From positions 1 through 64,000 of the forward strand of contig QMMN01000003.1 in assembly GCA_003647275.1 (NCBI GenBank): a stretch of DNA of 64,000 bases. The letters are read 5' to 3'. The DNA is from Deltaproteobacteria bacterium. Its GTDB lineage: Bacteria > Desulfobacterota > Desulfobacteria > Desulfobacterales > C00003060. The translations under genes and the position numbers were made by a program. Shown one piece after another: positions 38,420 through 44,552 of this stretch (the first letter of the stretch is position 1; each line of letters starts with the position of its first letter). The notes beneath the pieces were generated by a model. The model made no database searches. It was given only the letters and a program-made list of their open reading frames with translations, and was not told where the DNA came from.

Positions 38420-38496
<77 letters not shown>

Positions 38497-38542: not shown

Positions 38543-40609
38543 TCAATACGCCACACATCTAAATCCGAGTATGTTGGAGGGTGACTCGGCATCCCATTTA
38601 AACCGGCTGAATAACCGTATGTCATTTCCTGATATCCAGCTCCCCCCCTTGATAATATAGTATTTGGCCCTGTTTTCGACGTGAGGAGGCGGCTCACAAG
38701 TCGTTAAGGTCCATTCTACCACATTTCCTATTGTGTCAACGATACCAAATTCATTTTCAAATTCTATATACTTATCCACAGGCGTTGTGTCCGCTATGGC
38801 GCTTTCCTCAATGTTACAAGAATCTCTTTTCCAGTCGTTTCCCCACGGCAATACGTAACCATCAGCAGTCCGTGCGGCGGCCTCCCATTCATCTTCAGTA
38901 GGCAGCCTTTTGCCCGTCCAAGCTGCAAAAGCAATGGCATCTTCCAGGCTAACCTGAACCACGGGGTGATTTCTTTTATTGTGTAGCGTACTCCCTGGCC
39001 CTGTCGGTTGATACCAGCATGCGCCTTGTACTGTTTTGCAACTGATGGCGGCATTACAGGTAGATGTAACCAAACCGGTTTCTTCATCGACCGTCTCCTG
39101 GAAACGCCCATGGTAAACTGTGCTGTATCCCAGCCTTTCTGCAGTCGTGCGATATCCGGTTTTCTCAACAAAAATTTCAAAAAGTGTGTTTGTCACAGGG
39201 AATTTACCCATATAAAAAGGCATCAGGTGCACCTTATGCTCGAGTTGTTCATCATTTTTGGGCATCTTGCTGCCTACAAGATAGTCTCCTTCGGGAATCA
39301 GAATATATTGATTGTAATATCGGTCCCTGGCACTAAGATAGGCATTAAATTGTTCGGCCAAAAGCTTGGCCTGCTGTATTTTCTCCTTCTCTTCATAATT
39401 GCTATCCAGACTTTGTCGTTCTAAATCTCCAACAGTCAAGCCTGACGCCTCAAAACCTTCTGCGAGCTCGACCTCTTCAAGACCCTCTACAACTTCAGCT
39501 TCCTCGAGGCCCTCCTCTACATCAGCCTTCTCAACGTCCTCTGCAATCTCTGCCTCTTCAAGATCCTCCTCTACTTCCTCAGCTTCTTCGAGGTCTTCTT
39601 CGACCGCAACCTCTTCTACCTCAGCCTCCTCGAGCTCTTCCGCAATCTCTGCTTCCTCAAGGTCCTCTTCGACCTCAGCTTCTTCAACGTCATCTTCAAC
39701 CTCTTCAAGGTCCTCCTCTACTTCCTCAGCTTCTTCGGGGTCTTCTTCGACCGCGACCTCTTCGAGATCCTCTTCGACTTCCGCTTCTTCAAGGTTTTGT
39801 TCGATCTTTTCGGTGTCTCCAGCTTTTTCAGGCCCGACACCCTGTTCACCCCCGGATTCACCCCCCTTAGTATCAGGCCCATAGCCTTCGGGGCCAGCTT
39901 CAATAACATGGTCCCCCTCATGCTTTTCCCGTGCCTCTTCGCTATCTGCTTCTGTACCAGTCTCTAAAAGCTGGACGCCCTCTTCATGCTTCTCAACCAC
40001 CCTTGTTCCAGATGCCCCTGTGACCTCATTACTCAGAGTACCCTCTTCCACTTCTATGCCAAGATTCCGAGATAAACCGCGGATTATGTTTCTTAACTGC
40101 TCTAACTTGCTCAGGCCATCCGGGCTGTCAGCATCGGCCAAAGTCTCCGGACTTGATAATACTTCACTGACGACATTTAAAACTTCCGCTATTTGTCCCA
40201 GGGAGACAGATCTATCTCCTTTCTCGCCGCTTGCGAAATGACTTGTAAACGTCGCTAAGAACTTCTCTTTGGCCTCATCGGACATCATAAAAATATTGTT
40301 GGGCCCGATGGATATGCCTTCAGTATTTTTACCGTCCTCATAAAGTCTTTTTAAATCGTTATTAATAGACGATCTAATACTGCTCAAATTTTTCCGTTTA
40401 CTTTTAATTGCCTTAGGATCATCGCCTGTATTCCAAAGCGCTTTGACAAGTTCATCCGTGTCGATCTCCTGTATGGATTCAACTGAGCTTTCGTTTTCGT
40501 AGTAGCCCCTGATAATATGAATGAGTCTGTATTTTAATGCCTTCTCACTTCGGTAATTCAGGTTTGATATTGCCTCGTCTATACCCTGAAGGGATATTGC
40601 AGCGGCCAT
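38543..40609 (-). CDS. FGE-sulfatase-fold protein with N-terminal winged-helix-like region and Glu-rich linker
   Basis: A 688-residue protein in three parts. Residues 1-125 are helical and look like a winged helix (ALKYRLIHIIRGYY, KNLSSIRSSINNDLKRLY, then a wing EGISIGPNNIFMMS). Residues about 200-395 are disordered, and 270-395 nearly all Glu, Ala, Val, Asp. Residues 436-688 are an FGE-sulfatase/C-type-lectin-like domain (PEGDYLVGS, GKFPVTNTLFEIF, GKRLPTEDEWEAAAR, GNVVEWT, GGSW, LGFRC). The two cysteines that bind copper in true formylglycine-generating enzymes are missing, so it is probably a binding module. It is divergent from parA. Confidence 0.85.
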   Translation of the reverse strand: MAAAISLQGIDEAISNLNYRSEKALKYRLIHIIRGYYENESSVESIQEIDTDELVKALWNTGDDPKAIKSKRKNLSSIRSSINNDLKRLYEDGKNTEGISIGPNNIFMMSDEAKEKFLATFTSHFASGEKGDRSVSLGQIAEVLNVVSEVLSSPETLADADSPDGLSKLEQLRNIIRGLSRNLGIEVEEGTLSNEVTGASGTRVVEKHEEGVQLLETGTEADSEEAREKHEGDHVIEAGPEGYGPDTKGGESGGEQGVGPEKAGDTEKIEQNLEEAEVEEDLEEVAVEEDPEEAEEVEEDLEEVEDDVEEAEVEEDLEEAEIAEELEEAEVEEVAVEEDLEEAEEVEEDLEEAEIAEDVEKADVEEGLEEAEVVEGLEEVELAEGFEASGLTVGDLERQSLDSNYEEKEKIQQAKLLAEQFNAYLSARDRYYNQYILIPEGDYLVGSKMPKNDEQLEHKVHLMPFYMGKFPVTNTLFEIFVEKTGYRTTAERLGYSTVYHGRFQETVDEETGLVTSTCNAAISCKTVQGACWYQPTGPGSTLHNKRNHPVVQVSLEDAIAFAAWTGKRLPTEDEWEAAARTADGYVLPWGNDWKRDSCNIEESAIADTTPVDKYIEFENEFGIVDTIGNVVEWTLTTCEPPPHVENRAKYYIIKGGSWISGNDIRLFSRFKWDAESPSNILGFRCVAY
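39425..39802 (-). repeat. In-gene tandem repeat coding a Glu-rich linker
   Basis: A degenerate array of GAA/GAG-rich units coding EEAEVEEDL-like blocks. Two near-identical stretches of about 50 bases (from 39564 and from 39711) are offset by 147 bases, exactly 49 codons, which points to in-frame duplication. Confidence 0.75.
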
Positions 40610-40805
40610 AGGACCCCCCTATAGGAGCAAAACAGAAATTTGAACTAATTGTTTCAAAAATACAACACTTTCATTGAACACTCAAGGAGATTTCGCTAAA
40701 GCACCACACACACCGGGCCGATAACTAAAAGACAGCATAAAGGTAGTAGCCATACAAACGGTTTGTGCCTTTTCAAACTTCCCATTTTATGTTACATACT
40801 TTTTC
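40610..40805. promoter_or_regulatory. Divergent control region between the FGE-fold gene and parA
   Basis: This 196-base gap must hold both promoters. A run of G precedes the FGE-fold ATG by four bases on the minus strand. For parA, a TACATACT element ends five bases before the ATG and no ribosome-binding site is seen. No operator palindrome is evident. Confidence 0.45.
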
Positions 40806-41600
40806 ATGAGTACTATTATCTGCATAACCAGCCAGAAAGGCGGCGTTGGAAAAACCACAACCGCCATTAATCTTTCTGCCGCCCTGGCCGTGGCCGAAAA
40901 AAGAACTTTGCTGGTCGACAGTGATCCTCAGGGGAATGCCACCACGGGAATGGGGATCAACAAGGTGAAACTCACGAAAACGCTCTATCATGGGATGATA
41001 GGCAATGCCAGGCCAGAGGAACTCGTTATGGATAGCCACCTTGAGTTTTTGAAAATAATACCCGCACGGACTGAACTTTTCCGTGCTGAGTTGGAGCTGA
41101 CGTCCAGACCTGGTAAAGAAAAGGTATTGCGCAACTTGCTCAGCAGTCTCAAGGAAATGTATGACTACATCATTATCGACTCGCCCCCCTCGCTGAGTCT
41201 CATTACGGTGAACGCTATGACCGCGGCCGACTCGTTATTGATTCCTCTCCAATGTGAATTTTACGCACTGGAAGACCTCGGCCAGCTTTTGCATACTGTC
41301 CAGTTCATCAAGAAAAAATTCAATCCCGGCCTCAAGGTGGCAGGGATACTTTTGACCATGGTTAACTTACAAGAAAACATCTGCCGAAAAATCGCTGACG
41401 ATGCCCGACATCACTTCAAAAACCTGATGTTTAAGACAATGATCCCGAGAAATGTTCAATTGCGGGAGTCTCCCAGTCTTGGAAAACCTCTCCTACACCA
41501 AGATATTATGTCGGTTGGAGCCCGCAGTTATTTTGACTTGGCACAAGAGATCATGACCCGGGATTCAGGTTCATTGGTTCAGGGGCCAGAATTTAGATAA
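40806..41600 (+). CDS. ParA/Soj-family ATPase without a ParB partner
   Basis: A 264-residue deviant-Walker ATPase: KGGVGKTT at 11-18, DSDPQGNATTG, DSPPSLSLITVNAM and the C-terminal TMIPRNVQLRESPSLGKP. These proteins cycle on DNA or membranes to place plasmids, chromosomes or protein clusters. No ParB-like gene or parS-type repeat is nearby; instead it is followed by two acidic-linker proteins. The ATG has no evident ribosome-binding site, so translation may be leaderless. It is probably a cargo-positioning ATPase, an inference from family and context. Confidence 0.92.
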   Translation: MSTIICITSQKGGVGKTTTAINLSAALAVAEKRTLLVDSDPQGNATTGMGINKVKLTKTLYHGMIGNARPEELVMDSHLEFLKIIPARTELFRAELELTSRPGKEKVLRNLLSSLKEMYDYIIIDSPPSLSLITVNAMTAADSLLIPLQCEFYALEDLGQLLHTVQFIKKKFNPGLKVAGILLTMVNLQENICRKIADDARHHFKNLMFKTMIPRNVQLRESPSLGKPLLHQDIMSVGARSYFDLAQEIMTRDSGSLVQGPEFR

Positions 41601-41617
41601 TAAAAGGGGTGAGGACA

Positions 41618-42226
41618 ATGAAAATTGCAGATTCTGAAGCGATCAAAAGTGGGGAACGCGAGTTAATTGATGCAATAACGGCCGATCTTGATTGGAGCTC
41701 AATTGAAGAAATTTTCAGAAAGCAGCACAACCTAGGCATTGAGGATGATGTTGAATTCAAGAACGGTGATATTGTTGTTTTAGATGATCAGATAGCATAT
41801 CGGTTAGAATTTGAAGCCAAGGTCACTCTTTCTATTTTATTTGATAGAGAAGGAAATTATATATCACTTGAAAGTACGGGGGATCTCGACAAGACATCAG
41901 AAGAAAATGAAGAAAAATTGCAGAAAAAAACAGAAGACTTGGCAGATGATTCAAACGAACAATCAGATTATAATGCCGCACAGCGCGCGGACAGGGAACA
42001 AGATCCACAAACAAGTCATGAACCAGAAGCACAATTAGCCCATGATGATGTTACAAAACCAGAAGGGGGCCCTGAAGCGGCATTGACAGAACCGGAGCAT
42101 GGTGATATATTAAAAAACTCTGAAATGGCGCTATCCATGCCGTCTGATGCGACTCCGCAGGAAAAGATCTCGCAAATGGCAAGTCAAGTTGCTGAGATGA
42201 TATCGGAAGTAGATGAGAAAAAGTAA
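41618..42226 (+). CDS. Acidic hypothetical protein in the parA cluster
   Basis: A 202-residue protein. Residues 1-85 form a compact domain (LDWSSIEEIFRKQHNLGIEDDVEFKNGDI, then several strands ending ILFDREGNYISLE). Residues 90-180 are disordered and acidic, and the C-terminal 25 residues are helical (QEKISQMASQVAEMISEVDEKK). No known family. It begins at ATG 41618 with GAGG five bases upstream and follows parA by 17 bases, so it is likely its direct partner in the position normally held by ParB or a ParA adaptor. Confidence 0.7.
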   Translation: MKIADSEAIKSGERELIDAITADLDWSSIEEIFRKQHNLGIEDDVEFKNGDIVVLDDQIAYRLEFEAKVTLSILFDREGNYISLESTGDLDKTSEENEEKLQKKTEDLADDSNEQSDYNAAQRADREQDPQTSHEPEAQLAHDDVTKPEGGPEAALTEPEHGDILKNSEMALSMPSDATPQEKISQMASQVAEMISEVDEKK

Positions 42227-42368
42227 ATCTGAAGCCTGTGCCCCTTGAAGGGCCAGGATTTCGGGGAGCGAGCTGGACATACCCATATCAGAAGGCATCC
42301 GCACTGATGTCGGACGACAGAGTTATGCCTGACTGCTTTGTTTCGTGTGAGCAAAACGAAAACATCTA

Positions 42369-43967
42369 ATGCAAAAAGAGGCCGAACAAAACAAACTTGT
42401 GGACCAAAAGGTTAGGAGGGCGATTGACCAGGTATTAATTAAGCACATAGAACGGCTGCTGGGAACCAGTTATGGGATCGGCGCATTGCCTATGAATACG
42501 GCAACCATATCATGCCTTGTTCTTCTGGTAGAACGTGAAAACGAAATCGAAACTTTTCCATCCACCCCGCCTGAACGTTATACGCATGAAACACTCCTTG
42601 AAGGTTTGGTTGAACTTGGTCTTGAACCAGACGGAGACCTGCAAACCGCACTTCAAGATATGATCCAAAAGGGGTACATCGAAGTGACCCCTGATGGTAC
42701 GTTTTTGGCCAAAAAGCCTGCCACGACCATGATTCAATTGTTTGACCGCATTTTTCCAGGAATGCCCGGAATGAATTTTGTTGCTTACCTTGTTCAAACG
42801 ATGGATGAGGTAGTATCCGGGCGTAAAGACCTGGTATCTGGAATCAGTCAATTGGACCAAACATTACAGATGCATGGGGTTCCGCTGTCAAAACAAACAA
42901 CAAGGCGGCAGGGAGTCGGGCAAAAGCCTTCAGAAAAGGTAACAACACGTGGGAAGGGTAAGGGGCCGTCTATACAGGCAAAGACACCATCAGAATTCTT
43001 CCGAAGGCTACAAGCGGGAAAGATGTTCCAGCGAAGCCCTCAGCCTGCCGGTCAACCTAGGATCCTGACGGCAGCCGGAGAAGCAAGACAGTTTGAAATC
43101 AAAGAGCTTTTCAGTCTAAAGGAAGATAAATCCACGGCGGCCGCTGCTGCGTCTACGGAAACGCTCCAGCTTCATGAGCCAGAAATATCCAAAGAAGAAC
43201 CCCTTAAAACAGACCAGGAAAAAAGTCCATTAGAACCACCACCTAGTGCCGAGTCCGAACGCCCTTACGAAGACGTTGAAACATTGTTAAAAAAGGCGCC
43301 GGATACCCTGTCGCAACCTGATTCTGAGCAACAGGATTTGGCCGCGGAAACGGCCGATGCCCACGCGGTACTGGAAGATGTCCCTCCTGAGCAGGAAATG
43401 CCATTGATCTCAGAACCGGTTGTGCAAGAGGCAGGCCTTTTGACAGATACAGAGGAGGCGTTTGAGACAAAACCAGATCAGACTGAAGAAGCTGCTTCAG
43501 CCGTTGAGACGGAACATGAAACGGACATTGTTTCGGAAGAGCATGAGACGATTGGAGCCGATGATACGGTAGAAAGGCGGATTGCGGCTTTCGAAGAAGA
43601 CCTGGCGATGTTATGTCCGGTATGTAAGACCGGTAAAATCGTAGAAAAACGGACTGCCAAGGGTAAACTTTTCTACCAGTGTCCCAACAAGGACTGCATT
43701 TTTGTAAGTTGGGGCAAGCCGTATCACATTGTTTGCCCACAATGCAAAAATCCATTCTTGGTAGAAACCACTGACAGGAATGGAAAAACAATCCTAAAAT
43801 GTCCGAGGGCAACCTGCCGACATCAGCAGAACCTTCCATGGGAATCAACCGATACCCCTGTGGAAGACATGGCTTCAGCCTCCAGACCGGTTACAAAATC
43901 ACGCGTGATCGCCCGAAGGCCCCGAAGGAAAGTCGTAAGAAGGCGGGTTGTTCGCAGAAAACGATAG
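42369..43967 (+). CDS. Protein with two topoisomerase-type zinc ribbons and basic tail
   Basis: A 532-residue protein. Residues 1-165 contain helices and a wing-like ALQDMIQKGYIEVTPDGTFLAKK, like a winged helix. Residues about 170-415 are low-complexity and acidic. Residues 418-490 hold two C4 zinc ribbons (CPVC...CPNKDC; CPQC...CPRATC) of the kind at the end of topoisomerase I. The tail is strongly basic (RRPRRKVVRRRVVRRKR). DNA or RNA binding is likely. It has no topoisomerase catalytic domain. It follows the acidic gene after a 142-base gap, same strand. Confidence 0.75.
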   Translation: MQKEAEQNKLVDQKVRRAIDQVLIKHIERLLGTSYGIGALPMNTATISCLVLLVERENEIETFPSTPPERYTHETLLEGLVELGLEPDGDLQTALQDMIQKGYIEVTPDGTFLAKKPATTMIQLFDRIFPGMPGMNFVAYLVQTMDEVVSGRKDLVSGISQLDQTLQMHGVPLSKQTTRRQGVGQKPSEKVTTRGKGKGPSIQAKTPSEFFRRLQAGKMFQRSPQPAGQPRILTAAGEARQFEIKELFSLKEDKSTAAAAASTETLQLHEPEISKEEPLKTDQEKSPLEPPPSAESERPYEDVETLLKKAPDTLSQPDSEQQDLAAETADAHAVLEDVPPEQEMPLISEPVVQEAGLLTDTEEAFETKPDQTEEAASAVETEHETDIVSEEHETIGADDTVERRIAAFEEDLAMLCPVCKTGKIVEKRTAKGKLFYQCPNKDCIFVSWGKPYHIVCPQCKNPFLVETTDRNGKTILKCPRATCRHQQNLPWESTDTPVEDMASASRPVTKSRVIARRPRRKVVRRRVVRRKR

Positions 43968-44102
43968 GGCCCGCGTTCAGGAAGGGGCCATCATCATTCC
44001 TGTGTTTTTCTCCCCGACAATAGGCTTCAATCGCACTCACCATTGTTCTAGCTGCTTGATCCCTTGTTCCAATCTTTCATGGTTTGCTGTTTTTTCTGCC
44101 AA

Positions 44103-44552
44103 TTAAAACTTTGACACGCTCTCGGAAAAAGCTGGATCTCGCAACAGTTTTTTAGCAAACTTTAGGTATTTCGTCACGATTGCCCTAACTGCAAGCTGCA
44201 ATGCGTATGGTTTAATCGGTTTTTCCAACAAGTAGTTAATGTCTGACGCGATGCACATATTCACCACATCATCATTGGCATTTCCGGTGATTATGATTGC
44301 GTCTTCCTGAGCCATGGGAAACTTTTCCGCAATGGCATCAAGAAAATAAAATGCACTTTTTTCGCCAAGAAATACATCGACAACGAAAATCGCAACGCCG
44401 ATATCGCGACTTAGGCAATACAATTTCGCCTCATCAGCGTCTGTAAAGGCAAGTACATCTCCCCATGTATAGAATCGACTGATGATTTCTGATACCACTT
44501 CACATACATTTGCGTCGTCATCAACGATGATAACGTCCAATCCATCAGACAT
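44103..44552 (-). CDS. Stand-alone response-regulator receiver domain
   Basis: A 149-residue CheY-like receiver. The acidic pocket is D11-D13, the phospho-acceptor D59 (VVDVFLG), the switch T89 (ITGNAND) and K111 (LEKPIKP). A C-terminal helix of about 25 residues follows, with no output domain. It converges on the zinc-ribbon gene. No histidine kinase is in the window, so its input and output are unknown; it may serve the ParA cluster or be independent. Confidence 0.88.
   Translation of the reverse strand: MSDGLDVIIVDDDANVCEVVSEIISRFYTWGDVLAFTDADEAKLYCLSRDIGVAIFVVDVFLGEKSAFYFLDAIAEKFPMAQEDAIIITGNANDDVVNMCIASDINYLLEKPIKPYALQLAVRAIVTKYLKFAKKLLRDPAFSESVSKF

Follow-up and report, generated by a model that had tools for sequence, protein, structure and literature searches.

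Apparently inactive FGE-like and topoisomerase I-like proteins paired at a recurrent Desulfobacterota locus, with a ParA module in many lineages

A five-gene block and its recurrence

The DNA analysed here (the window) is the whole stretch of 64,000 nucleotides at positions 1 to 64,000 of the forward strand of contig QMMN01000003.1 (contig C3) of Deltaproteobacteria bacterium (Desulfobacterota; Desulfobacteria; Desulfobacterales; C00003060), whose assembly GCA_003647275.1 is a 3.0 Mb draft of 172 contigs. Positions 38543 to 44552 hold five genes: FGEp, which encodes an FGE-fold protein, on the minus strand; genes for a ParA ATPase, a small acidic protein and a zinc-ribbon protein (Z), all on the plus strand; and a lone receiver gene on the minus strand. 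An open reading frame check and Pfam confirm the coordinates that an initial annotation of this DNA had given for all five. That annotation also took the block to be one machine. For FGEp and Z the evidence for this is strong, and it is good for ParA plus the acidic protein as additional components; the receiver has to be left out. The features are as follows.

38543..40609, minus strand: FGEp, 688 aa; N-terminal domain, acidic linker and predicted pseudo-FGE domain
40055..40609, minus strand: FGEp N-terminal domain, residues 1-185, used as family marker; residues 6-108 winged-helix-like, 109-185 helical
39380..40054, minus strand: FGEp acidic low-complexity linker, residues 186-410, recognized by net charge
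38546..39379, minus strand: predicted pseudo-FGE domain, residues 411-688; SUMF2 likeness, no Cys in the catalytic-Cys column
40610..40805, no strand: divergent intergenic region between FGEp and ParA, 196 bases; putative site of both promoters, expected from position alone
40806..41600, plus strand: ParA ATPase, 264 aa; Pfam AAA_31, E 4.5e-62; KGGVGKT Walker A motif
41618..42226, plus strand: small acidic protein, 202 aa; N-domain, acidic linker and C-terminal helix, from conserved family alignments
42369..43967, plus strand: Z, 532 aa, predicted short-form pseudo-topoisomerase I; profile-profile match to TopA
42393..42860, plus strand: N-module of Z, matching TopA domain IV in hhalign segments
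43092..43112, plus strand: short linear motif in the Z linker, here FEIKELF; found from pattern counts in short Z linkers
43614..43817, plus strand: two C4 zinc ribbons resembling the last pair in TopA; eight invariant Cys, TopA match
43890..43964, plus strand: basic C-terminal tail of Z, from its K/R count
44103..44552, minus strand: receiver; Pfam E 2.1e-8

Three of the proteins had been assigned a common plan of a small N-terminal domain (winged-helix-like in two), an acidic linker and a short end module. The linkers bear this out: in the window proteins, net charge is -86 across 225 residues in FGEp, -33 at residues 251-404 of Z, whose tail carries +13, and -17 at residues 91-180 of the acidic protein. 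The rest of the plan holds only in part. FGEp ends in a full FGE domain of 278 aa instead of a short module, the N-domain of Z corresponds to topoisomerase I domain IV, and that of the acidic protein is predicted, with modest confidence, as two helices plus strands.

The block recurs far more than expected by chance, because its gene order repeats in dozens of loci, in other genera and families. An initial search for Z covered 60 relatives; many weak matches were TopA, and strong matches lay well outside the genus. In 20 pieces read around strong hits FGEp adjoins Z, and many of these pieces have ParA and the acidic protein in between. Of the 60 relatives, 17 have the FGEp N-domain and 17 the acidic protein, and the two sets differ in part. 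The FGEp N-domain, the acidic protein and Z were each made into a profile; a pattern scan with that of Z, one genome per species across 84,980 species, returned 70 loci. These are labelled Desulfobacterales, Deltaproteobacteria or Proteobacteria, or carry the names of genera such as Desulfobacter, Desulfobacula, Desulfotignum, Desulfospira, Desulfobotulus and Desulfamplus; one locus is labelled Actinomycetota, perhaps from a mislabelled bin. The scan was poorly sensitive to the long form of Z described below, of which it found two. Named carriers are Desulfobacter vibrioformis DSM 8776, Desulfobacter latus AcRS2, Desulfospira joergensenii DSM 10085 and Desulfobotulus alkaliphilus ASO4-4.

Within the phylum, 17 of 395 sampled genomes, this one counted, encode the FGEp N-domain and 18 encode a true Z (22 hits at E ≤ 1e-20, minus four ordinary TopA reading frames of 775-794 aa). 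Z is present in all 17 FGEp genomes, which span nine families; the hypergeometric probability is 6.5e-29 with genomes treated as independent, though they are related. The acidic protein occurs in nine of the 395 genomes, seven of them in the Z set. In the class of genome G203, which shares only its phylum label with the window genome, FGEp is found in 31 of 144 genomes; 23 of the 31 were examined (20 newly fetched, plus L152, L153 and L155), and each has a long Z beside FGEp. G095 has Z without FGEp on a contig that ends 444 bases upstream of Z, and in G289 FGEp and Z lie on separate contigs. The possibility that the families would fail to co-occur beyond this strain thus did not materialize.

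FGEp and Z, a conserved pair on two enzyme folds

FGEp residues 434-686 match the FGE-sulfatase family of Pfam (E 1.9e-53; 182.2 bits against a cut-off of 23.3) and so have the FGE-sulfatase fold; the nearest solved relative of the domain is SUMF2 (1y4j, E 3.4e-37). With columns assigned from what is presumably the position of the catalytic Cys in human FGE, the first catalytic column in 67 FGE rows holds 39 Ser, 13 Ala, 10 Thr, 1 Gln, 1 His and three gaps (L050, L057 and L074; L105 is out of frame there). None of the 64 rows bearing a letter in this column has Cys, and any Cys in the columns around both catalytic positions occurs in only 5 of 67, so that the catalytic cysteine pair is missing. 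The domain is thus apparently a pseudo-FGE, a dead enzyme as judged from these columns. By eye, FGEp has no obvious signal peptide.

The FGEp N-domain (family alignment of 53 rows) was modelled by AlphaFold2 with a mean pLDDT of 87.7, and Foldseek found no match for it at E ≤ 0.001. In VIA-align, residues 6-108 align with many winged helices of the OmpR/PhoB type at Z-scores of 5.5-7.3, values below 8 that may reflect a mere common arrangement; the top row (Z-score 8.0) is an unrelated helical match to residues 109-185. The model of residues 6-108 thus weakly resembles response-regulator winged helices. The linkers of two relatives (L032:3884-6628 and L034:11013-13403) consist of many near-identical acidic repeats, and linker length is therefore very variable in the family.

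Profile comparisons show Z to be TopA-like and, as judged from its domains, a descendant of a type IA topoisomerase, an origin that the initial annotation had not recognized. The short form, to which the window Z belongs, consists of TopA domain IV and two zinc ribbons, with the TOPRIM and gate domains gone. Top PDB matches of the Z profile are bacterial topoisomerases I (E 3.3e-5). In hhalign profile-profile comparison, Z 65-164 aligns with TopA 468-566 (E 8e-18), and Z 9-141 with TopA 144-312 (E 9e-6), the latter credible only to about Z 68 (TopA near 144-200). Two stretches that flank the gate in TopA thus stand adjacent in the N-module of Z, given the TopA domain borders assumed here. Each of the 14 aligned sequences has all eight zinc Cys. 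The ribbons match the TopA of this genome at 38% (E 1e-9, direct search) and the last two TopA ribbons at 36% identity, there with an E-value of only 0.0023 (profile alignment). The first ribbon has an aromatic pair just ahead of the third Cys in 14 rows; the second lacks the pair. A separate TopA bearing the usual motifs is still encoded in the genome (L174).

Two further traits were counted in the short form. At least seven K/R occur within the last 15 residues in 76 of 78 short Z proteins, and the motif [IVLF][KRQ][EDSTQA][ILVFMYH]F occurs in 41 of 78 linkers; shuffled linkers gave a mean of 0.85 and a maximum of 5, an excess that is inflated by kinship among the sequences. The motif is a good candidate for a docking site.

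Where no contig end cuts it, Z measures about 730-950 aa in the class of G203 and comprises TOPRIM, gate, domain IV and ribbons. Both of two long proteins tested score well above the Pfam cut-off of 35.1 bits for Topoisom_bac (76.5 and 102.8 bits) and exceed that for Zn_ribbon_Top1; Toprim is below its cut-off in one and unlisted in the other. G289, outside the sample of that class, also has a TOPRIM-bearing Z, with broken frames (L173). The catalytic-Tyr column of the long form holds Ser (12), Ala (10), Thr (2), Asp (1) and Phe (1) in 26 rows, which represent 25 distinct loci as L113 and L200 are one locus; Tyr occurs in none. The third acid of the TOPRIM DxDxE motif is absent from all 25 rows bearing letters there. 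Eight reference TopA rows (from eight of nine pieces; L222 gave none) were chosen by their catalytic motif and serve as a guide to columns, not as an independent control. The long form therefore has neither the gate Tyr nor an intact DxDxE, and in the short form both domains are missing.

TopA, long Z and short Z each fall on one side of a branch in a tree of the family (SH-aLRT 100, 60 and 99, respectively), a quick tree without bootstrap that left out L113, L200, L205, L216, L173 and all but 24 short rows. Since long Z has neither the Tyr nor the third acid and the tree groups these proteins, loss of catalysis appears to be common to the long forms, while the short form has no catalytic domains at all. 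A second Z-like domain IV, in genome G034 (L043:6978-8609), is fused to an HDOD domain (Pfam E 1.7e-20) and has neither zinc ribbons nor an adjoining FGEp.

FGEp and Z also keep together on the chromosome. Of 111 loci, 89 have the two genes on a single piece, never more than 1,942 bp apart; these counts are conditional, as loci were fetched for their content of Z or FGEp, and G004 and G404 give two pieces each to the 111. The two genes are divergent in 83 of the 89 complete loci, co-directional in five (L140-L144) and tail-to-tail in one (L154). Between them stand ParA and the acidic protein in 37 loci (L063, L085, L086, L103 and L110 included), the acidic protein alone in 13, and neither in 15 short-form loci and in 24 of 24 long-form loci. 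In G008 (L037:4284-4885) the locus has decayed: only the tails of Z and FGEp remain, abutting in divergent order, which looks like one deletion that took most of both genes, though it might be an assembly error. Gene order and alignments together show FGEp and Z to be an old two-gene unit, built on what appear to be two dead enzymes.

The ParA-acidic protein module and the neighbouring genes

ParA had been seen as perhaps the driver of the system, a central role that the count does not support: 39 of the 89 complete loci have neither ParA nor the acidic protein between FGEp and Z. The observation that ParA has no adjoining ParB does stand. The Pfam match makes it a ParA ATPase as in ParABS systems, no ParB lies next to it, and the ParB_N matches of this genome are on contigs C10, C138 and C96, none on C3. 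ParA-ParB pairs are found on C10 and C138; the latter, on a contig of 3.4 kb, may be contamination (3.5% estimated). Among the sequences compared, the window ParA is 67% identical to the cluster ParA of L047, 61.9% to that of L053 and 61.6% to the genome's own ParB-adjoining ParA.

The acidic protein probably starts at ATG 41618 (202 aa) rather than at GTG 41609, because its relatives share an MK[ILV] start. It has no Pfam or NCBIfam match above cut-off and no sequence match in PDB, searches that included no direct comparison with McdB families; as a candidate ParB it was rejected, there being no ParB match in Pfam or NCBIfam. Its structural model is poor (pLDDT 63.9, pTM 0.26) and gave no Foldseek match at E ≤ 0.001, and no fold is therefore claimed.

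The pair occurs without adjoining FGEp-Z in eight loci (L157-L159 and L162-L166), and the acidic protein accompanies FGEp-Z without an intervening ParA in 13, for example in Desulfamplus (L104). ParA and the acidic protein thus form a separable two-gene module, which many short-form lineages carry between FGEp and Z, and the acidic protein, found with either partner set, is placed as a linker would be. PMC10241942 describes ParA partners as very diverse and often unidentified. Distant relatives of the acidic protein occur without ParA at L160:8217-9002, L161:8231-9079 and L168:8390-8986; the one in L160 adjoins a receiver-NMT1 fusion (Pfam), and genes that look similar by eye lie near those in L161 and L168.

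The lone receiver, which had been counted as a member, is a bystander. Among 233 loci, a homologue at E ≤ 1e-12 outside the window occurs in one genome alone (L025/L045), 5 kb from Z with other genes between, and the gene was rejected as a component. A receiver-TPR protein, a GAF histidine kinase and a thioesterase convergent to Z are real neighbours in 8, 8 and 10 of 95 loci but not general; such an array, mostly with a 4HBT thioesterase, is seen at L030:5056-7877 and in L033, L034, L038 and L041. Of the same 95 loci, 34, 21 and 21 have menaquinone-type genes alongside and 22 have a XerD-like recombinase, probably through inherited gene order. Neighbour clusters are named from one Pfam-scanned example each, and the XerD and menaquinone labels, where they go beyond Pfam families, are our assumption. 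A tRNA-Arg gene lies at window positions 38420-38496, 46 bases past the 3' end of FGEp.

A possible nucleoid-bound assembly, its rivals and known relatives

The preferred reading, held tentatively and at somewhat less than an even chance, is an assembly bound to the nucleoid, with Z as the reader of single-stranded or under-wound DNA, FGEp as the scaffold, and ParA with the acidic protein spreading or positioning the whole. Its functional steps are all inferred from anatomy and conservation, which the alignments and gene orders display directly. Z would be the part that touches DNA: its TopA-type ribbons and basic tail may hold single-stranded or under-wound DNA, or RNA polymerase, without cutting. 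According to PMC4678816, stacking interactions let the ribbons of E. coli TopA bind single-stranded DNA, and the C-terminal domains of that enzyme make contact with RNA polymerase. In Z and FGEp, the acidic linkers may tune such binding by vying with DNA for the basic parts; the pattern seen in the window proteins, strongly acidic linkers and basic ends, fits charge-tuned binding or condensates. FGEp would gather Z into larger assemblies, possibly through its winged-helix-like domain or, alternatively, through a pseudo-FGE cleft that binds the conserved motif of the Z linker. The acidic protein might then connect the assembly to ParA which, where present, would spread or position it by ATP-dependent nucleoid binding, a role that ParB or McdB partners share in elsewhere. 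ParA-driven positioning and condensates are plausible as hypotheses.

Several points weigh against such an assembly. Interaction of its parts, their DNA binding and their localization are proposals throughout. The cluster ParAs are 26-67% identical to that of the window and do not form one clade, with six changes on the tree; this tree holds only those passing a pattern and distance filter (27, minus two duplicates, plus the window), and L157, a stand-alone pair, wrongly bears a cluster label in it. Given this diversity and the scattered clades, the ParA slot may have been refilled, perhaps more than once. ParA partners are reported (PMC10241942) to carry a positively charged N-terminal peptide, and the acidic protein has no obvious one. 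Of the 26 long rows, 7 have a Tyr no more than three columns away from the lost one, which leaves inactivity strongly suggested but short of proof; activity through a shifted Tyr is unlikely on the aligned columns. The GRVQS motif of TopA domain IV is replaced in Z, suggesting changed contacts of this domain with single-stranded DNA, and binding is therefore more likely to involve the ribbons and tail. Finally, occurrence is patchy: FGEp is present in 8 of 21 searched genomes of the same genus, several of them incomplete drafts, and the system is thus probably dispensable.

The rival that survives best, though doubtful, is a topology-responsive regulator, in which Z and TopA are rivals for under-wound DNA or RNA polymerase, a winged-helix FGEp sets transcription or supercoiling, and ParA is incidental. 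The TopA-like ribbons of Z, the resemblance of the FGEp N-domain to OmpR/PhoB-type winged helices and the 39 complete loci in which FGEp and Z stand with neither ParA nor the acidic protein all suit such a regulator. However, the winged-helix match is weak, with Z-scores under 8, and of the 50 short-form loci with the acidic protein between FGEp and Z, 37 have ParA there as well, which is too frequent for accident.

A role in chromosome segregation or the handling of entanglements, with a dead TopA marking precatenane or single-stranded regions that ParA pulls apart, is improbable. ParA, the topoisomerase descent of Z and the common XerD-like neighbour are consistent with it, but no ParB adjoins this ParA, two orthodox ParA-ParB pairs exist elsewhere in the genome, the recombinase may be nearby through inherited gene order, and the system is probably dispensable within the genus. 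It is very unlikely that FGEp is a working enzyme of another FGE-fold type, like EgtB or PvdO, which Z targets to DNA or RNA polymerase. Other chemistries are known among FGE-fold enzymes, and NCBIfam gives weak FGEp hits to EgtB (70.8 of 360 bits) and SenA (68.9 of 420 bits); these are far under the curated cut-offs, the first catalytic Cys column has lost its Cys, and the nearest solved relative, SUMF2, is presumably inactive.

A defence or mobile-element module, already disfavoured, is scarcely credible: FGE-fold domains reportedly occur in some conflict systems, but PADLOC at E ≤ 0.01 had no match for FGEp, the acidic protein, short Z or one long Z (ParA gave two weak hits, 1.6e-4 and 0.0035), no viral relative of the FGEp N-domain was confirmed (one pattern, 11 candidates), no plasmid match was found for that domain or Z, and the neighbours are repeatedly housekeeping genes. 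Equally remote is the idea of mere neighbours kept by descent, for which vertical inheritance within families speaks, since FGEp and Z stay adjacent in lineages whose surrounding genes differ, kept adjacency while orientation changed in L140-L144 and L154, and seem to have been lost together in G008.

The nucleoid-bound assembly can be extended to a bolder and unlikely proposal, that a family of retired topoisomerases reads DNA topology while a pseudo-FGE scaffold gathers it into charge-tuned assemblies on under-wound or transcribed DNA; a ParA-acidic protein motor would have been added in some lineages, with ParA cargo set by topology rather than by sequence or organelle. A conserved pair of apparently dead enzymes, one of them traceable from full-length, inactive-looking forms to a short remnant, would show a topoisomerase turned structural or sensory protein. 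It would also offer a concrete bacterial example of a possible topology reader, and a novel type of cargo for ParA. Named strains carry the system, which is therefore testable.

In the open-licence literature, no description of inactive topoisomerase I paralogues in Desulfobacterota, or of a locus combining FGE, ParA and topoisomerase, was found among the matches listed. A word search of the text of a 2024 review of type IA topoisomerases (PMC10969213) returned neither 'inactive' nor 'paralog' nor 'Desulfo'.

The known relatives each share part of this anatomy. Z is homologous to TopA in domain IV and the zinc ribbons, and long Z also in the TOPRIM and gate regions; unlike TopA, long Z has lost the catalytic Tyr column and the TOPRIM acid, and short Z has lost both domains. 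SUMF2, an FGE paralogue without the catalytic Cys that acts in the animal secretory pathway, is the closest solved relative of the FGE domain, whereas FGEp has an N-domain, a long acidic linker and no obvious signal peptide. YrdD, as described in PMC4678816, consists of stand-alone TopA-like ribbons without a catalytic core and is reported to bind single-stranded DNA; it has four ribbons, whereas Z adds domain IV, an acidic linker, a basic tail and the FGEp partner. ParABS systems have the ParA ATPase in common with this locus, where ParB is absent beside ParA. McdA-McdB, which positions carboxysomes, likewise pairs ParA with an adjoining partner gene; the acidic protein matched no family searched and is set apart on that basis, without a direct McdB comparison. 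PomXYZ of Myxococcus xanthus combines ParA with two partner proteins on the nucleoid; Z and FGEp point instead to the topoisomerase and FGE families (Pfam and PDB, with no direct comparison to PomX or PomY). Thus, on its predicted domains, the FGEp-Z core fits no known kind tested, while the ParA layer taken alone would be a variant on a known theme.

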